Assembly: GCF_001428335.1 (NCBI RefSeq)
Contig: NZ_LMSG01000023.1
Coordinates: 1 to 64,000 of the forward strand
Reading direction: 5' to 3'
From: Arthrobacter sp. Soil762
Lineage (GTDB): Bacteria; Actinomycetota; Actinomycetes; Actinomycetales; Micrococcaceae
Length of the DNA stretch: 64,000 bases
In this document: piece by piece, positions 52,278 through 60,065 of the stretch
Layout of the letters: every line of letters starts with the position of its first letter
Position numbering within the stretch: position 1 is the first letter of the stretch
The notes under the pieces: model-generated
Database searches by the model: none
What the model saw: only the letters and a program-made list of their open reading frames with translations
What the model was told of the DNA's origin: nothing
Program-made: the position numbers and the translations under genes

Positions 52278-53894
52278 TTAGTTTCCGCCCGCAACTTTCA
52301 GTGCGGCGTTGAAGGACGCGAGCCTGCTGACCTCAATTTCCACCGGCTCCACCACGAGGTCCCGGGCAACCTCGCCCACCGCTGCCCTCAGCCGTTTCCT
52401 GGCCCTGGCTGCGCGCGCCCTCGCGGCTCCTGACCCAATGAATTTTCCAGTCAGCGCCAGGAAGATCCCCAGCACCACACCGCTGCCAATCACCAACGTC
52501 GGCACCGGCCAGCCCTCCACCTTCGGAACCTCCGGCACGGGCAGCTGGAGATAGCCGAGCCCGGCCAGCACGCCAAGCCAACCCAGGCCGCCCAGGACTG
52601 TCACCAGCGCGAGCCACTGGACCACGTTGAACACGCCCCACCACCAGGACTTCCGGGACGCCATCAGGTCCGTGCCTGCGATGGCCTGGTCCAAGGCATC
52701 CGGCAACGCCTCCCGCCCTTCCCGGGCAGCACCCCTGATCGCGGCACGCCACGGCCCGGGTGCGCCCGCACTCGCCGCGTCCGCAAACTCACGGACAGCA
52801 GCATCCGTCCGGGCGCGTTCCGGGGCGCCCGCGGCCGGGAGCGAGGTCCGGTTAAGCTGGGACGGAGAAGAACTTCTCAGATTGAGCCGGCGGAGCGGAT
52901 CAGGCCGGAACCGCACCAGCCATCGCGTCACCGGCCACCCCGTGCGGCGCGTCGACTCGATGCGGTAGGACCGCGCAACTGCGTCCACCACCACGGGCAC
53001 GTTGGCGGCCGTTGCCAGCTCATCGGTGAGCCGGGATCTCGACGCCGGCCTGACACCGGCGGCTTCCCCAGCGCCGGCGGCTTCCCGGAGTTGCCCCGAG
53101 GCCCGCGAAACGTCCGCGGCCAGACGCTGCGAAAGTGCCTGGCGCTGCACCACCACACCGCGGATGGCGCTCCGGACCTTGTCCACGCCGGTGCCCTTCA
53201 GGGCGGAGGCACCCAGGACCTGAACCTTTCCCAGCCCGTCGCGGGCAAGGATCCCTTTCAAGGACTCCAGCACAGGCTGCACGTCCCGTTCGGGCAACCG
53301 GTCCACCTGGTTAAGGACCACCAGGGTCACGGCTCCATGTGCGGCCAGGGGCGTGAGGAAATCATTGTGGACCGCCGCATCGGCGTACTTTTGCGGATCC
53401 AGGACCCAGACCAGGACATCAACCAGGCCAACCATGCGCTCCACGATCTCGCGGTTTGCGGTCCTGGTGGAGTCGAAGTCCGGCAGGTCCAGCAGGATCA
53501 GCCCCGTGCGGTCGTCCGCGAAGCCTGCCACGGGCTCCGCATGGTGGCGGTTGCCCACCTCAAGCCAGTCCAGCAACGGCTCGCTGCCGTCCGCTCCCCA
53601 GACACCAGCCAAAGGTTCCGACGTTGTGGGCCGGCGGGCGGCCGCCGTCGCGATTTCAGCGCCGCTGACCGCGTTGAAGAGTGACGATTTTCCGCTGCCG
53701 GTGGCACCGAAGAACCCAACAACGGTGTGATCAGCCGACAGTGACCGGCGAGAGCTCGCGCGTTCGAGGAGCTGGAACACCTCCTCGAGTGCAGCATCCG
53801 GCAAGACGCCTTCGGCGAGTTCGCGGGCATCATTGAGGGCTTCGAGCCTGCGGTCCAGCTGCGACGCTTCACGGGCTACGCTGTGGCGGCTCAT
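52278..53894 (-). CDS. dynamin-like GTPase, second of a pair
   Basis: This 538-residue protein has an N-terminal GTPase domain: P-loop GATGSGKS (63-70), a DxxG-type motif LLDLPDFDSTRTANR and an NQVD (NKxD) base motif. A helical middle region follows, then two C-terminal hydrophobic segments (about 425-450 and 465-490), a layout like bacterial dynamin-like proteins. The start at 53894 overlaps the stop of the upstream GTPase gene (ATGA), so the two are co-translated. Streptomyces DynA/DynB act at division septa; equivalence here is inferred. Confidence 0.75.
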   Translation of the reverse strand: MSRHSVAREASQLDRRLEALNDARELAEGVLPDAALEEVFQLLERASSRRSLSADHTVVGFFGATGSGKSSLFNAVSGAEIATAAARRPTTSEPLAGVWGADGSEPLLDWLEVGNRHHAEPVAGFADDRTGLILLDLPDFDSTRTANREIVERMVGLVDVLVWVLDPQKYADAAVHNDFLTPLAAHGAVTLVVLNQVDRLPERDVQPVLESLKGILARDGLGKVQVLGASALKGTGVDKVRSAIRGVVVQRQALSQRLAADVSRASGQLREAAGAGEAAGVRPASRSRLTDELATAANVPVVVDAVARSYRIESTRRTGWPVTRWLVRFRPDPLRRLNLRSSSPSQLNRTSLPAAGAPERARTDAAVREFADAASAGAPGPWRAAIRGAAREGREALPDALDQAIAGTDLMASRKSWWWGVFNVVQWLALVTVLGGLGWLGVLAGLGYLQLPVPEVPKVEGWPVPTLVIGSGVVLGIFLALTGKFIGSGAARARAARARKRLRAAVGEVARDLVVEPVEIEVSRLASFNAALKVAGGN

Positions 53895-55705
53895 GCCTTG
53901 TCCGCCAGCCGGGCCAGGGCAGCGGCGTGGTCGGTCAGGATCCGGCCAGTGTCCGCGCCGCCCTCCGGCAGGCGTTGGATGAATTTCTGCTGCTCTGCCT
54001 GCAGCAGCCGCTGGCAACGGGCATGGAGGTCATTCCGCGCAGTCTGCGCAAGTCGGCGGACAGCGTCTTCGCCGAACACTGCCTCGAGCAGTTTCTGGCC
54101 GACGACGGCGGTACCGCCCGCCACGCCGATCTCCAGCCCGGTGAGGCCGGCGGTCATGGAAAACACCACGATCATCAGCGCGGCACCCAGGCCGTTGATC
54201 CCGAAGGAAAGCCATCTCGCCTGCGTGCGCTTGCCCTGCCCTTCCGTGCGGATCAGTTCCATCAGGCCGGTCTGCCAGGCCCGGATCTCCGCCGCAGCCA
54301 CCTCGGCAAAGCCTGGGCTGGTGCCGGACAGATCCTCCGTCCCCAGGAGCCCGCGGCCGGCCGGGTCCGAGCGCCACCGCCGGTCAGTCTCTTCGCCGGC
54401 GTTGGCGGCCTCGTCCAGGATGACGGCCTGCAACCCCGTTTCGATGGCGGCCTCAACCCGGACGGCCGGCGTCGGCTCGCCCCGGAAGAACGCTCCCACG
54501 CGGTCCCGCAGCCGTCCGATGTTCTGCTCCAGCGCCCGGAAGAATTCCCCTGTTCCGACGAAGTCCTGCCAGCGCGCCAGTACTTCGCCACGGAGGAGGG
54601 CGCCGTCCTTTGTTGCGTCCAGGATCCGGGCCCCGGCATCGCGGTAGGCGGCCTCAGCGCCTGCACGGAGCGCGTCCGCGGCACGCTCCTGCCCCTGGAC
54701 CGCGTGCGCCACCGCACCGACCCGCCCGGACAGCGCCTTCACCGTCCCGTTGAGGGTCCGGCGGGCAATGTCGGACCGCCCCGCGGCGTCGGCTGCAAGT
54801 TCCTGCAGCCAGCGCCGCAGCGGCTCCACTGCGCTCGATGGCAGCATGCCAAGATGGTCCAGGTCCGTCTCCGGCACAATGAACAGTCCGGCATCGCCGA
54901 GGCCTTCCTGCCGCAGCAGCGCGCGGAGATCTGCACTGACTTCGGCTTCCGCCTCCGCCGGCACACGGTCCAGGACCACGGCCACCATGATGTCCCGCGA
55001 GGACGCGTCCAGGAGAAGCTTCCACGGGACCGCGTCCGCGTAGCGGTTGGCGGTGGTCACAAAAACCCAGAGGTCCGCGGCGGCCAGCAATTGACCGGCG
55101 AGCCTGCGGTTGTCGTCGGAAATGGAGTCGACGTCGGGGGCGTCAAGCAGTGCGATCCCCTGCGGAACAGCCTGGTCCGCTACCAGTACCAGGGACGAAG
55201 TGGCTTCTGCATCGGGTGTTGCGCCGGCCCGGCTGGCCGGAACGGGTTCCCTGGAGACGGTGCCCCGGATCCGGTTGAGGGTGGGCAGCACGCGGTGGCC
55301 TTCGAACCAGCCGGCATCGGCCGGGTGGTGCAGCAGAATTGGCTGCCGGGTGGTGGGCCTGATGGCCCCGGAGCGTGTGACCGGGTGCCCCACCAGGGCG
55401 TTGACCAGCGTTGACTTGCCGGCACCCGTGGAACCCCCGACGACGGCAAGGAGCGGTGCGTCCAGGCTGCGGTACCGCGGCAGGATGTAGTCGTCCAGCT
55501 GGGCGACGGCGTTCCGAGTGTCCTGGCGCGCCTGTTCCACGTCAGCAAGGGCGAGCGGCAACGACACTGCGGACAGATCCCCACGCACGGCCTCGAGCAA
55601 GGCCACGGCCGGCTCCGACGCAGCGTCGGGCCGGCCCGGCTGCGTTCTCGGTGCGCGCTTAGGCGACGGAGGCTGCGTGGGACGAAGCCCGTCTGAGGAG
55701 GTCAC
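53891..55705 (-). CDS. dynamin-like GTPase, first of a pair
   Basis: This 604-residue protein has a Pro-rich N-terminus, P-loop GGSTGAGKS (90-98), a LLDAPDVDSIS switch-type motif, long helical segments and two adjacent hydrophobic segments near the C-terminus (about 500-540). GTP hydrolysis with membrane binding is likely. It starts at GTG with CATGAT 6 nt upstream, fitting the leaderless pattern. It overlaps the second GTPase gene by 4 nt; paired genes of this kind often make hetero-oligomers. Confidence 0.75.
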   Translation of the reverse strand: MTSSDGLRPTQPPSPKRAPRTQPGRPDAASEPAVALLEAVRGDLSAVSLPLALADVEQARQDTRNAVAQLDDYILPRYRSLDAPLLAVVGGSTGAGKSTLVNALVGHPVTRSGAIRPTTRQPILLHHPADAGWFEGHRVLPTLNRIRGTVSREPVPASRAGATPDAEATSSLVLVADQAVPQGIALLDAPDVDSISDDNRRLAGQLLAAADLWVFVTTANRYADAVPWKLLLDASSRDIMVAVVLDRVPAEAEAEVSADLRALLRQEGLGDAGLFIVPETDLDHLGMLPSSAVEPLRRWLQELAADAAGRSDIARRTLNGTVKALSGRVGAVAHAVQGQERAADALRAGAEAAYRDAGARILDATKDGALLRGEVLARWQDFVGTGEFFRALEQNIGRLRDRVGAFFRGEPTPAVRVEAAIETGLQAVILDEAANAGEETDRRWRSDPAGRGLLGTEDLSGTSPGFAEVAAAEIRAWQTGLMELIRTEGQGKRTQARWLSFGINGLGAALMIVVFSMTAGLTGLEIGVAGGTAVVGQKLLEAVFGEDAVRRLAQTARNDLHARCQRLLQAEQQKFIQRLPEGGADTGRILTDHAAALARLADKA

Positions 55706-55784: not shown

Positions 55785-55819
55785 GAAAAAACGGTCCCGG
55801 GCTGATGCCCGGGACCGTT
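55785..55819 (-). terminator. terminator after tRNA-Glu
   Basis: A 13-bp perfect stem (AACGGTCCCGGGC, arms 55790-55802 and 55807-55819) with a 4-nt loop ends in a run of six Ts on the minus strand. It lies just downstream of the tRNA-Glu CCA end. Confidence 0.92.
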
Positions 55820-55822
55820 CGT

Positions 55823-55898
55823 TGGTGACCCCAGCGGGATTCGAACCCGCGTTACCGCCGTGAGAGGGCAGCGTACTAGGCCGCTATACGATGGGGCC
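55823..55898 (-). tRNA. tRNA-Glu (anticodon CTC)
   Basis: The cloverleaf is complete: acceptor stem GGCCCCA/TGGGGTC, anticodon loop CT-CTC-AC and T-arm GCGGGTTCGAATCCCGC. The CCA end is encoded (55823-55825). The body is 73 nt, 55826-55898. Confidence 0.95.
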
Positions 55899-56041
55899 GC
55901 GTACTTCCAGGAAGTTTTCACTTCCAACCGGCGCCAGGCCGGTTTGCTAAGTGAGTATTTCATACACTCAGCGCGTGTTTCAAATCGGCGAACCGATCTG
56001 AAACCACTGATTTGCCGCGGTTAGCCTGCGACCAAACAGAG
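55899..56041 (-). other. structured spacer between tRNA-Gln and tRNA-Glu
   Basis: This 143-bp spacer contains two clear hairpins: AACCGGC-GCCAG-GCCGGTT (55926-55944) and TTTCAAATCGG-CGAA-CCGATCTGAAA (55978-56003, one mismatch). An imperfect TGAGTAT/ATACACTCA pair lies near 55952-55970. These may be processing signals or a terminator for tRNA-Gln; no gene is seen. Confidence 0.5.
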
Positions 56042-56113
56042 CTGGGATACCAGGACTCGAACCTAGAATGACGGTACCAGAAACCGTAGTGTTGCCAATT
56101 ACACCATATCCCA
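56042..56113 (-). tRNA. tRNA-Gln (anticodon CTG)
   Basis: The acceptor stem is TGGGATA/TATCCCA, with the U1-A72 pair typical of tRNA-Gln. The anticodon stem-loop is ACGGT-TTCTGGT-ACCGT and the T-arm is CTAGGTTCGAGTCCTGG. The discriminator is G, and CCA is not encoded. The length is 72 nt. Confidence 0.95.
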
Positions 56114-56290: not shown

Positions 56291-56410
56291 CCACCCACTG
56301 CCTTTGCTGCAGGCCCTTCGGAATGTCGTTTTGCGTCCGGACTGCCACCCTGGTCCAGGTGGGTGGCCGGCAGATTTCACACTGCCGGCAAACCGTCGAG
56401 AGGACCCACC

Positions 56411-57805
56411 GTGACACAAAGTCGTGCCGCCGCGCCCACCAAGACCCGAACCCGGGCACAGCAGCTTGCTGTCGCCGTCCTGGCCCTGATGCTGATTGCT
56501 TTGCTTGGGTTTTACACCCTGGTCACCGGCAGGATCACCGACGGATCGGCCAAGCTGATGGACGGTGCGGGCCAGGCCTCGGCCGGCGCTGAGCAGCTCA
56601 AGGACGGCGCCGGCCAGCTGGCGGCCGGCGCGGGCCTGGCCGACACCGGTGCCGGCAAGCTCTCCTCCGGCGCCGACAAAGTCCTCCTGGGTGTCAGCGA
56701 GAAGCTGGCCCCGGGCGCTGAAAGACTGCAGTCCGGTGCAGACCAGCTCGCCGCCGGAGCCGTCAAGATCGAAACTGACGTCAACAACAAGCTCGCGCCC
56801 GGCGTGTACAAAGCGGACGATGGCGCCCGAAAGCTCGCCGCCGGAGCCACCCAGCTCGCCGCGGCGCTGACGCCTACGGCCGCCGGAAATGCCGAGAACA
56901 ATCTGGCGGACGGCGCGACTGCGCTGGATGCAGGTGCGGCCCGCCTGGCCTCGGGAACCGGCGAACTGGCCGCCGGAACGGCCGAGCTGAAAGGCTACCG
57001 GGGAGCAAACAACTCCCCCGAGGCAGGTACCGGAACGGCAGCCTTGGCGCAGGCCCTTGAGCTGCTGGAGGCGGCAGCCTCGGACCCGCTTCAGGGTCTG
57101 GTGCCGCTGGCCGTAGTCAAGGACAAGATCGCCAAGATCACCGCTGGAGCCCATAGGCTCGACGCCGGGGCGCAGCAACTGCAGGCTGGCGCGGGGAAGC
57201 TCAATGACGGAGCGGCACAGTTGCACACTGGAACAGGGCGCCTCACCGCCGGCTTCGCCACCCTGGGTGAAAAGCTCAACAGTCGCGATCCCAACAACCC
57301 TGGTGTTGTGCTCGGTACCGAACTGCTGGCCGCCGGAACTGCCCAGATCCGCACCGGCATGGACGGCGTGCCCGGCAATGCCGACCGCCCGGGCCTGATC
57401 AACGCCGTCGCCACTATTACTGAGGGCACCTCACGGCTGGCGGACGGCACGTTGGCGTTGAATGCCGGGATCAAGGGCGATCCGGCCGATCCCTCAAACC
57501 CCGGCCTGCTCCACGGCTCCCAGGCACTGGCTGCGGGCGCTTCGGAGCTTGCCACAGGCAACACCAAGCTGGCCACGGGATCGACAGAGCTGGCCACGGG
57601 TGCCGAGAAACTTGCTGATGGCAATGCCCGGATTGCGGATGGCACGGACACCCTGTACAGCAGTGCAGCGGCCGTCTCGCCCACCAGTACGGTGGGGAAG
57701 TCCGATACCGCCGTTGCCCTCTGCCTGCTTGCTGTGCTTGTGCTCGGATCCGTGGGCATCTACCTGGTGCTGTGGAACAGGCGAAGGCTGCAGTCTGCGG
57801 AGTAA
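56411..57805 (+). CDS. membrane-anchored heptad-repeat protein, YhgE/Pip-like repeat region
   Basis: This 464-residue protein has a membrane segment near each end (about 19-40 and 433-455). Between them is a long run of seven-residue units of the form xLxxGAx (for example QLKDGAG, KLSSGAD, RLQSGAD, QLAAGAV, KLADGNA), broken near residues 195-235 and 290-345. Such repeats form helical rods in the extracellular part of YhgE/Pip proteins, but the ABC-2-type membrane domain of those proteins is absent. Both ends would be cytoplasmic with the repeat region outside. The GTG start has GAGAGG 7 nt upstream. Its function is unknown. Confidence 0.78.
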   Translation: MTQSRAAAPTKTRTRAQQLAVAVLALMLIALLGFYTLVTGRITDGSAKLMDGAGQASAGAEQLKDGAGQLAAGAGLADTGAGKLSSGADKVLLGVSEKLAPGAERLQSGADQLAAGAVKIETDVNNKLAPGVYKADDGARKLAAGATQLAAALTPTAAGNAENNLADGATALDAGAARLASGTGELAAGTAELKGYRGANNSPEAGTGTAALAQALELLEAAASDPLQGLVPLAVVKDKIAKITAGAHRLDAGAQQLQAGAGKLNDGAAQLHTGTGRLTAGFATLGEKLNSRDPNNPGVVLGTELLAAGTAQIRTGMDGVPGNADRPGLINAVATITEGTSRLADGTLALNAGIKGDPADPSNPGLLHGSQALAAGASELATGNTKLATGSTELATGAEKLADGNARIADGTDTLYSSAAAVSPTSTVGKSDTAVALCLLAVLVLGSVGIYLVLWNRRRLQSAE

Positions 57806-57813
57806 GCGGCCGG

Positions 57814-58551
57814 TCAGCCCAGCAACTGCTCCAGTGAGGTGATCTTGTGACCGGTGAAATCCGGCGCGGGCTCCCCCACCCTGTCGAGCCAGACGCCTAT
57901 CAGGCCCGCCGCCGTCGAACCTTCAGCGTCCAGCATCCTGTTGTCACCCACGTAGAGCGTCTCCTCCGGGGCAGTCCCCAGCAGGCGGACTCCTTCGAGG
58001 TAGATGGCCGGCTCGGGCTTGGCAACGCCTACCGTGTCCGTACCAACCAGGCGGCGGACGCGTTCCAGTCCAGCGCCGTCGAGCTTGGCCCGCTGGTAGT
58101 CGTGCACGTTGTTACTGACGGCACCGTAGGGGATGCCGGCAGCATCCAGCAGGTCCAGGAGCGGCAGAACGTCCTCAAAGGCACGTACATACGTGGGCTG
58201 CAGCCGGCCGTAGGCCGAGAGCCACCCGTGCGCTTCTTCACCGTCGGCAAGATCCACACCGAAGTGCCCCAGGGCGGCGCGTCCCCGCAGGAGGCGCTGG
58301 TCGTTGAAGGTCAGCTCCCCCGCCAGGTACCGGTCGTAGTAGTGCGTGGTCTCGTGCGTGAAGATCCTGCCGAAACGCTCCCACCCGGTCTGGTCCAGAC
58401 CGGGCAGAAGGTGCTCGCTGACCTCACGCAGGGCGGTGGTCATGGCGTATTCGAGGTCCACCAGGGTGTCGTCGATGTCGAAGAGGACGCCCCGGATGGA
58501 CCCGAAACGTGTGCTCAGGACTCCGTCAGCCGTCGTGCCGGTGGTAGACAT
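57814..58551 (-). CDS. HAD-family hydrolase
   Basis: This 245-residue haloacid-dehalogenase-type phosphatase has the catalytic motif VLFDIDDTL (Asp25 and Asp27), a helical cap, the motif II-like AVSNNVH, the Lys motif GVAKPEPAIY and the acidic motif YVGDNRMLDAEG. The substrate is unknown; close forms include phosphoglycolate- and nucleotide-type phosphatases. It overlaps the gltX stop by 1 nt, so it is co-translated with glutamyl-tRNA synthetase. Confidence 0.88.
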   Translation of the reverse strand: MSTTGTTADGVLSTRFGSIRGVLFDIDDTLVDLEYAMTTALREVSEHLLPGLDQTGWERFGRIFTHETTHYYDRYLAGELTFNDQRLLRGRAALGHFGVDLADGEEAHGWLSAYGRLQPTYVRAFEDVLPLLDLLDAAGIPYGAVSNNVHDYQRAKLDGAGLERVRRLVGTDTVGVAKPEPAIYLEGVRLLGTAPEETLYVGDNRMLDAEGSTAAGLIGVWLDRVGEPAPDFTGHKITSLEQLLG

Positions 58552-60065
58552 CAGCCGCGGAAGGTACGGAGCCGGCTCAGGGACGAGCCCTTGCCCAGGA
58601 TCACCATGGATTCGAAGAGCGGCGGCGAGATCCGGCGCCCGGAGATGGCCGTGCGGACAGGACCGAAGGCCAGCCGCGGCTTCAGCCCGAGGTCCTCCAC
58701 GAGTGCCTGCTTCAGGGCCGTCTGAATCTCCTCCGGGTTCCAGTCCTGAATGGGCTCAAGGGCAGCAAGGGCGGCGTCGAGGACTTCGGTCAGGTTGGCG
58801 GGCAGGCCCTTAAGGGCATCGTCCGCGACGTCGATGGCGTCGTCGGCCTTGAACAGGAAGGCGAGCATCTCCGGGGCTTCCCCGAGCAGGGTGATCCGCT
58901 CCTGGACGAGGGGTGCAGCCTCGGTGAGGATCTCTTCCTCCCGGTCCGTGAGGATTTCCCCGACCAGGCCCGCGGCCCGGAGGTACGGCACCAGGCGCGC
59001 ACGGAAGTCAGCCGCTTCGAGCAGCCGGACGTGCGTGCCGTTGATGGCCTCGGCCTTCTTCAGGTCAAAGCGGGCCGGGTTGGCGAGCACATCGTGGATG
59101 TCGAAGTGCTCCACGAGCTGCTTGACGGTGAAGATGTCCTCGTCGGCGCTCAGGGACCAGCCCAGGAGGGACAGGTAGTTCAGCAGGCCCTCGGGAATGA
59201 AGCCGCGTTCGCGGTGCAGGAACAGGCTGGATTCGGGGTCGCGCTTGGAGAGCTTCTTGTTGCCCTGGCCCATGACGTAGGGAAGGTGGCCGAACTCGGG
59301 CATGTACTCGGCCACGCCGATGGCGTAGAGGGCGCGGTACAGGGCGATCTGGCGGGGCGTGGAACTGAGCAGGTCTTCGCCGCGCAGCACGTGGGTGATT
59401 CCCATCAGGGCATCGTCCACCGGGTTTACCAGCGTGTACAACGGCGCGCCGTTGGCACGGACCACCGCGAAGTCCGGCACGGATCCGGCCTTGAACGTGA
59501 TTTCGCCGCGGACGAGGTCCTTGAACGTGAGGTCCTCGTCCGGCATCCGGAGGCGCAGCACGGCCTGGCGGCCCTCTGCCTTGTACTGGGCCAGCTGTTC
59601 CTCGGTGATGTGCCGGTCAAACCCGTCATAACCCAGCTTGGGGTCCCGGGAGGCCGCACGGTGGCGGGCTTCGATTTCAGCCGGGGTGGAGTAGGACTCG
59701 TAAATGTGGCCGCCGGCCTTCAGCCGCGCGATGACGTCCTGGTAGATGTCGCTGCGCTGCGACTGGCGGTACGGCTCGTGCGGGCCGCCCACTTCGACAC
59801 CCTCGTCCCAGGTGATGCCCAGCCACTTCAGCGCGTCCAGCAGCTGGTGGTAGCTTTCCTCGCTGTCCCGCTCCGAGTCCGTGTCCTCGATGCGGAAGAC
59901 CAGGGTGCCCTTGGTGTGCCGGGCATAGGCCCAGTTGAACAGCGCCGTGCGGATCAGGCCCACGTGCGGGGTGCCCGTGGGTGACGGGCAGAACCGCACC
60001 CGGACCGGGGTTTCGGCAGTGACGGACGGGATGGCGGCAGGGTTCAGCGCGGAGGCAGTAGTCAT
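58551..60065 (-). CDS. gltX: glutamyl-tRNA synthetase
   Basis: GltX charges tRNA-Glu. In most actinobacteria it also charges tRNA-Gln, which is then amidated by GatCAB (established for the group, not shown here). The 504-residue class I enzyme has the HIGH-type motif [11 protein letters not shown] (about 29-39) and the KMSKS-type motif KKLSKRD (about 263-269), plus the C-terminal anticodon-binding domain. tRNA-Glu and tRNA-Gln genes lie nearby at 55.8-56.1 kb. Confidence 0.96.

Follow-up and report, generated by a model that had tools for sequence, protein, structure and literature searches.

Overlapping dynamin-like genes in Arthrobacter sp. Soil762

The window analyzed here (i.e., the whole stretch of 64,000 nucleotides at positions 1-64,000 of contig NZ_LMSG01000023.1, assembly GCF_001428335.1, Arthrobacter sp. 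Soil762) carries two adjacent minus-strand genes, A and B, that encode dynamin-like proteins. Judged from their sequences, they are very probably orthologs of the Streptomyces genes dynA and dynB (Table 1). On the minus strand the order is A and then B, with four bases (ATGA) in common. An earlier reading made from the letters of this DNA (here, the sequence-only reading) had pointed out this overlapping pair of 604- and 538-residue proteins, and both open reading frames were confirmed. Since the frames overlap, A and B are probably cotranslated.

Table 1. Coordinates of genes A and B, their motifs and hydrophobic segments, and nearby features in the window
Feature	Position	Strand	Details
Gene A, dynamin-like protein, probable DynA ortholog	53891..55705	-	GTG start; 604 aa
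Gene B, dynamin-like protein, probable DynB ortholog	52278..53894	-	ATG start; 538 aa
ATGA overlap	53891..53894	-	B start codon inside A end
A P-loop (G1) GGSTGAGKST	55409..55438	-	Residues 90-99
A G3-like motif DAPDVDS	55124..55144	-	Residues 188-194; Asp replaces Gly of DxxG
A hydrophobic hairpin region	54071..54211	-	Residues 499-545; 499-517 strong, remainder below threshold
B P-loop (G1) GATGSGKS	53685..53708	-	Residues 63-70
B G3-like motif DLPDFDS	53469..53489	-	Residues 136-142
B G4 motif NQVD	53301..53312	-	Residues 195-198
B hydrophobic segment 1	52581..52637	-	Residues 420-438
B hydrophobic segment 2	52449..52505	-	Residues 464-482
Terminator-like hairpin between tRNA-Glu and gene A	55789..55820	-	14 pairs; consensus match only
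tRNA-Glu	55823-55898	-	Upstream of A
tRNA-Gln	56041-56113	-	Upstream of A

We collected 80 loci of relatives, found via B in the genomes of named records. A lies directly upstream of B on the same strand in 79 of them (the exception, L038, begins within B at a contig end); the pairing is therefore not due to chance. Counted from where the A stop codon ends, a B start codon is at -4 in 72 of the 79 loci. Three of the other seven (L013, L056, and L065) were not assessable because of a stop or frame break in the match, and four (L060, L064, L073, and L084) are spaced differently. Another 28 loci were selected for matching in phylum- and class-wide draws, and 15 of these belong to a Streptomyces-like genus. 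In all 28, A and B share one strand and one short stretch, with the start at -4 in 15; no B start was seen in the range looked at for L111 and L147. The closest relatives found were the Pseudarthrobacter strains L007 and L039 (identity, 96 to 97% for A and 96% for B).

Predicted fold and membrane segments

Both proteins exceeded the curated cut-off of the Pfam family Dynamin_N (27 bits), A with 42.4 bits and B with 32.5 bits. AlphaFold2 models from 28 sequences each reached a predicted local distance difference test score (pLDDT) of 79.9 for A and 86.7 for B. The models contain the long helices that the sequence-only reading had proposed (residues 307-366, 417-446, 466-489, and 546-576 of A; residues 417-448 and 464-535 of B). 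The top VIA-align match of both models was the yeast mitofusin Fzo1 (A, 9kfd, Z = 23.2, root-mean-square deviation of 4.6 over 328 residues; B, 9kfe, Z = 22.6, 3.1 over 289 residues). These alignments span the GTPase domain plus helices, and their end points (24 and 604 in A; 1 and 538 in B) suggest a helical bundle to which helices on either side of the G domain contribute. The top Foldseek rows were BDLP, IniA, OPA1, SynDLP, and a Campylobacter pair for A, and IniA, the Campylobacter pair, and BDLP for B. Whole-chain template modeling (TM) scores among these rows were low (0.20 to 0.41), perhaps because these proteins are hinged.

It is highly improbable that A and B are translation-type GTPases (Era/YfjP/HflX) mislabeled as dynamins: the best NCBIfam match of B is indeed Era (E = 5.5e-9; 35.7 bits versus a cut-off of 237), and Era (7c1o) also gives a good structural alignment with the GTPase domain of B (Z = 18.7; 167 residues), but Era covers the G domain only (A, Z = 15.6; 164 residues), the longer match is Fzo1, Dynamin_N passes for both proteins, and the models include long helices and C-terminal hydrophobic segments. 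An Era/YfjP-type fold is contradicted by the Fzo1-like predicted models, so the dynamin-like character first proposed is retained. No open-licence paper joining YfjP, GTPase, and dynamin was found.

Paired C-terminal hydrophobic segments had been attributed to both proteins. A hydrophobicity scan (threshold, 1.6) bore this out for B, whose two segments peak at 2.06 (420-438) and 2.14 (464-482) within the aligned segments, and not for A, where 499-517 alone passes (peak, 1.87). The neighboring segment of A peaks at 1.26, and residues 503-533 have low pLDDT. Among the assessable rows outside the Streptomyces-like genus, the first segment of A reached at least 1.6 in 90 of 91, and segments 1 and 2 of B did so in 91 of 92 and 92 of 92, respectively; the second segment of A stayed below 1.6 in every row. 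The B segments attained this level in 12 (segment 1) and 13 (segment 2) of the 15 Streptomyces-like rows; L131 fell far short for both.

Nucleotide motifs

Compared as profiles, A and B align with one another along the G domain (probability, 99.5; 186 columns; 30% identity). Their G3 motif is of the DxPD type rather than DxxG and reads D-x-P-D-x-D-S in all 108 B rows and in 106 of the 108 A rows, the exceptions (L048 and L079) being fragments; a second dynamin pair on contig 18 of the same genome (see below) has DxPG. The G4 motif of B is of the NQxD type in 105 of 108 rows (NHxD in 2; another match in 1). No G4-like motif was found in A in 105 of 108 rows (2 were not assessable, and 1 gave another match); opposite the NQV of B, the profile alignment leaves A with a gap between VVL and DR. 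Of the two proteins first described as GTPases, B has Dynamin_N, G1, and G4 and is a predicted GTPase. For A, which has Dynamin_N and keeps G1 and has no recognizable G4, the label is putative only.

Relationship to DynA/DynB and IniA/IniC

DynA and DynB have been studied as sporulation-septum factors in Streptomyces. The sequence-only reading had noted a likeness to them, which the tree and the presence data extend to probable orthology. A tree of 56 G-domain rows (25 A and 25 B, each with 7 Streptomyces-like members, and 6 IniA/IniC) yielded three separate supported groups (A, 95/85; B, 97/94; IniA/IniC, 98/95), with A and B outside the IniA/IniC clade. The 15 Streptomyces-like genomes had been selected earlier because they carried a window-type pair; since this choice was biased, we made an unselected draw of 121 genomes from the same genus, and B was matched in 119. 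G493 and G515, which gave no match, are assemblies of 1300 and 1770 contigs, and the matches in G536 and G562 are weak. In 14 of the 15 selected genomes, no other adjacent dynamin pair exceeds the Pfam cut-off; the other rows above it are single, short partial matches, probably to ribosomal-type GTPases. Since the tree groups, the presence across the draw, the near-exclusive pair, the operon order, and the two membrane segments of B agree, the window pair most likely corresponds to DynA/DynB.

We take DynA to be SVEN_2472 and S. coelicolor SCO2683 to be SsbB; a literature look-up on the latter found no supporting paper. A gene for a single-stranded DNA-binding protein lies immediately 3' of B in one Streptomyces-like locus. 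According to published studies, S. venezuelae DynA (vnz_12110) and DynB (vnz_12105) belong to one operon that has one BldC peak and is repressed by BldC (PMC6428758), and DynB binds SepX and contains a pair of membrane segments (PMC8748795). SCO2685 and SVEN_2472 are given as homologs with the annotation "putative ATP-binding protein" (PMC3765725).

The second dynamin pair of the window genome, on contig 18, is of another kind. One member matches M. smegmatis IniA (E = 1.7e-139), and its dynamin-like neighbor, which we called IniC from its place, matches BDLP (E = 5.3e-11) and IniA (E = 9.6e-8). The locus further encodes an IniR-like regulator (385.9 bits; cut-off, 750), an IniB N-terminal domain (66.4 bits; cut-off, 40), and an Hsp70-like protein. 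These IniA/IniC genes were rejected as DynA/DynB orthologs; an IniA-type match is listed for 1 of the 15 Streptomyces-like genomes (G128; E = 1.7e-12). IniA-type proteins were found with one query sequence in 37 of 197 class genomes, and both kinds of dynamin occurred in 11 of the 197.

Two side observations concern these loci. Contig 18 (L095, 2137-11188) presents an iniBAC-like locus with an upstream IniR-like regulator and an Hsp70-like gene in a nonmycobacterial genome. Genome G128 holds, at 6512468-6516813 of contig 1, a cluster of three more Dynamin_N genes besides its dynA/dynB-type pair.

Distribution and genomic neighborhood

B was matched in 56 of 296 phylum genomes (single sequence; E <= 0.001), a few of these being weak G-domain matches only, and in 88 of 197 class genomes (profile; E <= 1e-10). 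The chromosomal place is conserved across the 80 loci of relatives, with IclR in 69, leuC and leuD in 68, gltX in 64, tRNA-Glu in 63, and murA in 62, short loci being scored as misses. These neighbors are mostly missing from loci outside Micrococcaceae. In the window, DUF1697 and IclR genes lie 3' of B on the opposite strand; beyond them are genes that we named by eye from their sequences and presume to be leuC, leuD, and murA. Because a strong terminator-like hairpin separates tRNA-Glu from A, the A-B pair probably has its own transcript.

Additionally, the tRNA-Glu and tRNA-Gln genes (55823-56113, minus strand) share their neighborhood with gltX (58551-60065), an arrangement present in many Micrococcaceae loci. 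A 480-residue frame on the plus strand (56363-57805) consists of X-X-X-Leu-X-X-Gly heptad repeats (NCBIfam TIGR03057; E = 7.6e-40) and was matched in 24 of the 80 loci of relatives. The B frames of two Streptomyces-like loci (L104, 8258-10537; L105, 8870-10960) have a long low-complexity part before the conserved part, rich in His, Glu, Asp, and Arg in L104; their start sites are uncertain.

Candidate division partners and proposed role

The window genome encodes one SepF and, on contig 12 (L120, 6638-7567, minus strand), a SepX/GlpR-like protein of 309 residues beside rimJ-like and galU genes. The latter protein matched no Pfam family; the scan marks three hydrophobic segments in it, of which one is barely above a lowered threshold. 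GlpR and SepX are regarded as one family, which the NCBIfam name bears out. The Streptomyces-like counterpart was located by its position beside galU and then by NCBIfam: proteins sharing an N terminus are encoded at this position in four Streptomyces-like genomes, and the single one scored exceeds the SepX/GlpR cut-off (240.9 versus 150). GlpR is described as having three membrane helices and two disordered regions (PMC10522489). Its MoeA-like partner Glp was not identified in the window genome, where two MoeA_N genes adjoin other molybdenum-cofactor-type genes (named by eye) and not galU or the rimJ-like gene. GlpR may thus be without a gephyrin-like partner in this genome, as no MoeA-like Glp gene lies beside the contig 12 gene.

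Sporulation is, to our knowledge, not expected in Arthrobacter, and the sequence-only reading had concluded that a nonsporulating organism would need another use for the pair. This step is not supported: sepX and dynB have been reported to co-occur in unicellular actinobacteria (PMC8748795), and SepF and a weakly matching SepX/GlpR-like gene are both present in the window genome, so division is the simplest reading. We favor, with moderate confidence, a model in which the pair, acting alongside SepF and SepX/GlpR but not SsgB, stabilizes the septum of ordinary cell division. A and B would be made together through translational coupling and would probably form a heteromer at the inner membrane face, where B would be anchored via its two membrane segments and A via its hydrophobic segment or a hairpin. 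Their mitofusin/BDLP-like GTPase domains and helical bundles may permit side-by-side assembly and the bending or bracing of membranes. The pair, recruited to the septum independently of SsgB, would then join SepF and the SepX/GlpR-like protein in stabilizing the Z-ring and the membrane. A nucleotide cycle, a septal location, and a division role are inferred for A and B.

Several observations weigh against this interpretation. Regarding identity, the pair of the Streptomyces-like genus was equated with DynA/DynB by exclusion, operon order, and neighbors, and the genus itself was taken as Streptomyces on a basis that includes its SsgA-family matches and the pair. The exclusion argument is imperfect because G128 (1 of 15) holds three further dynamin genes, and the tree tool warned of long branches joining the B and Ini groups. 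The first hydrophobic segment of A reaches at least 1.6 in 0 of the 15 Streptomyces-like rows; since window A keeps a segment that has no counterpart there, its function has possibly shifted. Regarding the partners, the SepX/GlpR-like protein matches NCBIfam SepX_GlpR_2 with an E value of 5.7e-8 and 33 bits, far below the curated cut-off of 150, and used as a query, it gave weak partial matches only, in 2 of the 15 Streptomyces-like genomes. No SsgA/SsgB family member was found in the window genome by a search that was positive in 15 of 15 Streptomyces-like genomes (3 to 12 matches per genome), which means that a known partner of DynB is lacking. Lastly, 109 of the 197 class genomes gave no match for the pair (profile; E <= 1e-10), and it is therefore not required for division in general.

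A more specific form of the septal model is possible, although we regard it as speculative and rather doubtful: B would be the GTP-hydrolyzing half of an asymmetric dynamin and A a non-GTPase, ATP-binding, nucleotide-locked, or regulatory half, septal in ordinary unicellular actinobacteria, and Streptomyces would have dropped the membrane segment of A on adapting the pair to sporulation. The conserved G4 loss in A offers a handle on the division of labor within a two-part bacterial dynamin, and the loss of the hydrophobic segment of A in the Streptomyces-like lineage offers a second one. Furthermore, a unicellular actinobacterium with the pair, SepF, a SepX/GlpR-like gene, a separate iniBAC-like locus, and no SsgA/SsgB found is a simple system for the part that the pair plays in plain binary fission. 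Among the open-licence papers matched and listed, none is an experimental study of a window-type pair outside Streptomyces, and no open-licence paper was found joining dynamin-like, Arthrobacter, and FtsZ.

Alternative roles

Membrane surveillance or repair under envelope stress, in which the pair would act at damaged membrane to tether, fuse, or sever bilayers as proposed for Bacillus DynA and mycobacterial IniA, is an unlikely alternative to septum stabilization, albeit the strongest one. A and B share the superfamily and the mitofusin-like predicted fold with such proteins, and the Campylobacter dynamin-like protein (DLP) pair tethers membranes, has a speculated repair role, and shows no obvious division defect after knockout (PMC6104087). 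However, the window genome has a separate stress-type iniR-iniB-iniA-iniC-like locus, and the presence of this other dynamin pair makes a repair function of A and B less needed. Moreover, the sole regulator near the window pair is the divergent IclR gene beside leuC, and the pair sits among tRNA, leuCD, and murA genes in relatives.

Phage defense, also raised by the sequence-only reading, would have the pair delay lysis or block release, as reported for Bacillus subtilis DynA; we consider it very unlikely and found no specific support for it. A Bacillus dynamin-like protein confers population-level phage resistance (PMC8844932), and PADLOC returned weak matches to the LeoBC and LeoA models (E = 3.1e-5 to 8.5e-5). 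These matches (A, LeoBC at 91-119 [the best, E = 3.1e-5]; B, LeoBC at 13-79 and LeoA at 43-200) lie inside the G domain or reach up to it, unrelated P-loop models were matched as well, and no PADLOC model matched A or B beyond the shared G domain. The pair also occupies one conserved chromosomal place with housekeeping neighbors, whereas defense cassettes usually behave otherwise. The conserved place and the G-domain-only matches thus disfavor this role.

Comparison with known systems

Among known systems, mycobacterial IniA/IniC likewise form a dynamin pair, and the contig 18 IniA/IniC-like genes, like A and B, overlap by 4 bases. They differ in their separate tree group, in the DxPG form of G3 (versus DxPDxDS in A and B), and in their linkage to IniR-like and IniB genes on contig 18, neither of which occurs at the window locus. 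Mitofusin/Fzo1 and Nostoc BDLP1 resemble A and B in their GTPase domain, predicted for the latter, with a bundle of N- and C-terminal helices and a hydrophobic part near the C terminus; the identity to Fzo1 is about 12 to 13% over the aligned residues. Campylobacter Cj-DLP1/Cj-DLP2 are encoded by an adjacent gene pair, as are A and B, and form a hetero-oligomer (PMC6104087); their structure 5oxf_C has the top query TM score (0.41) among the bacterial rows listed for A, at about 10% identity. Compared with Streptomyces DynA/DynB, window A retains its C-terminal hydrophobic segment, and the SsgA/SsgB family was not found in the window genome. The two systems are alike in the placement of A beside B on one strand, in the two membrane segments of B, and in the clades that A and B share with the Streptomyces-like copies.

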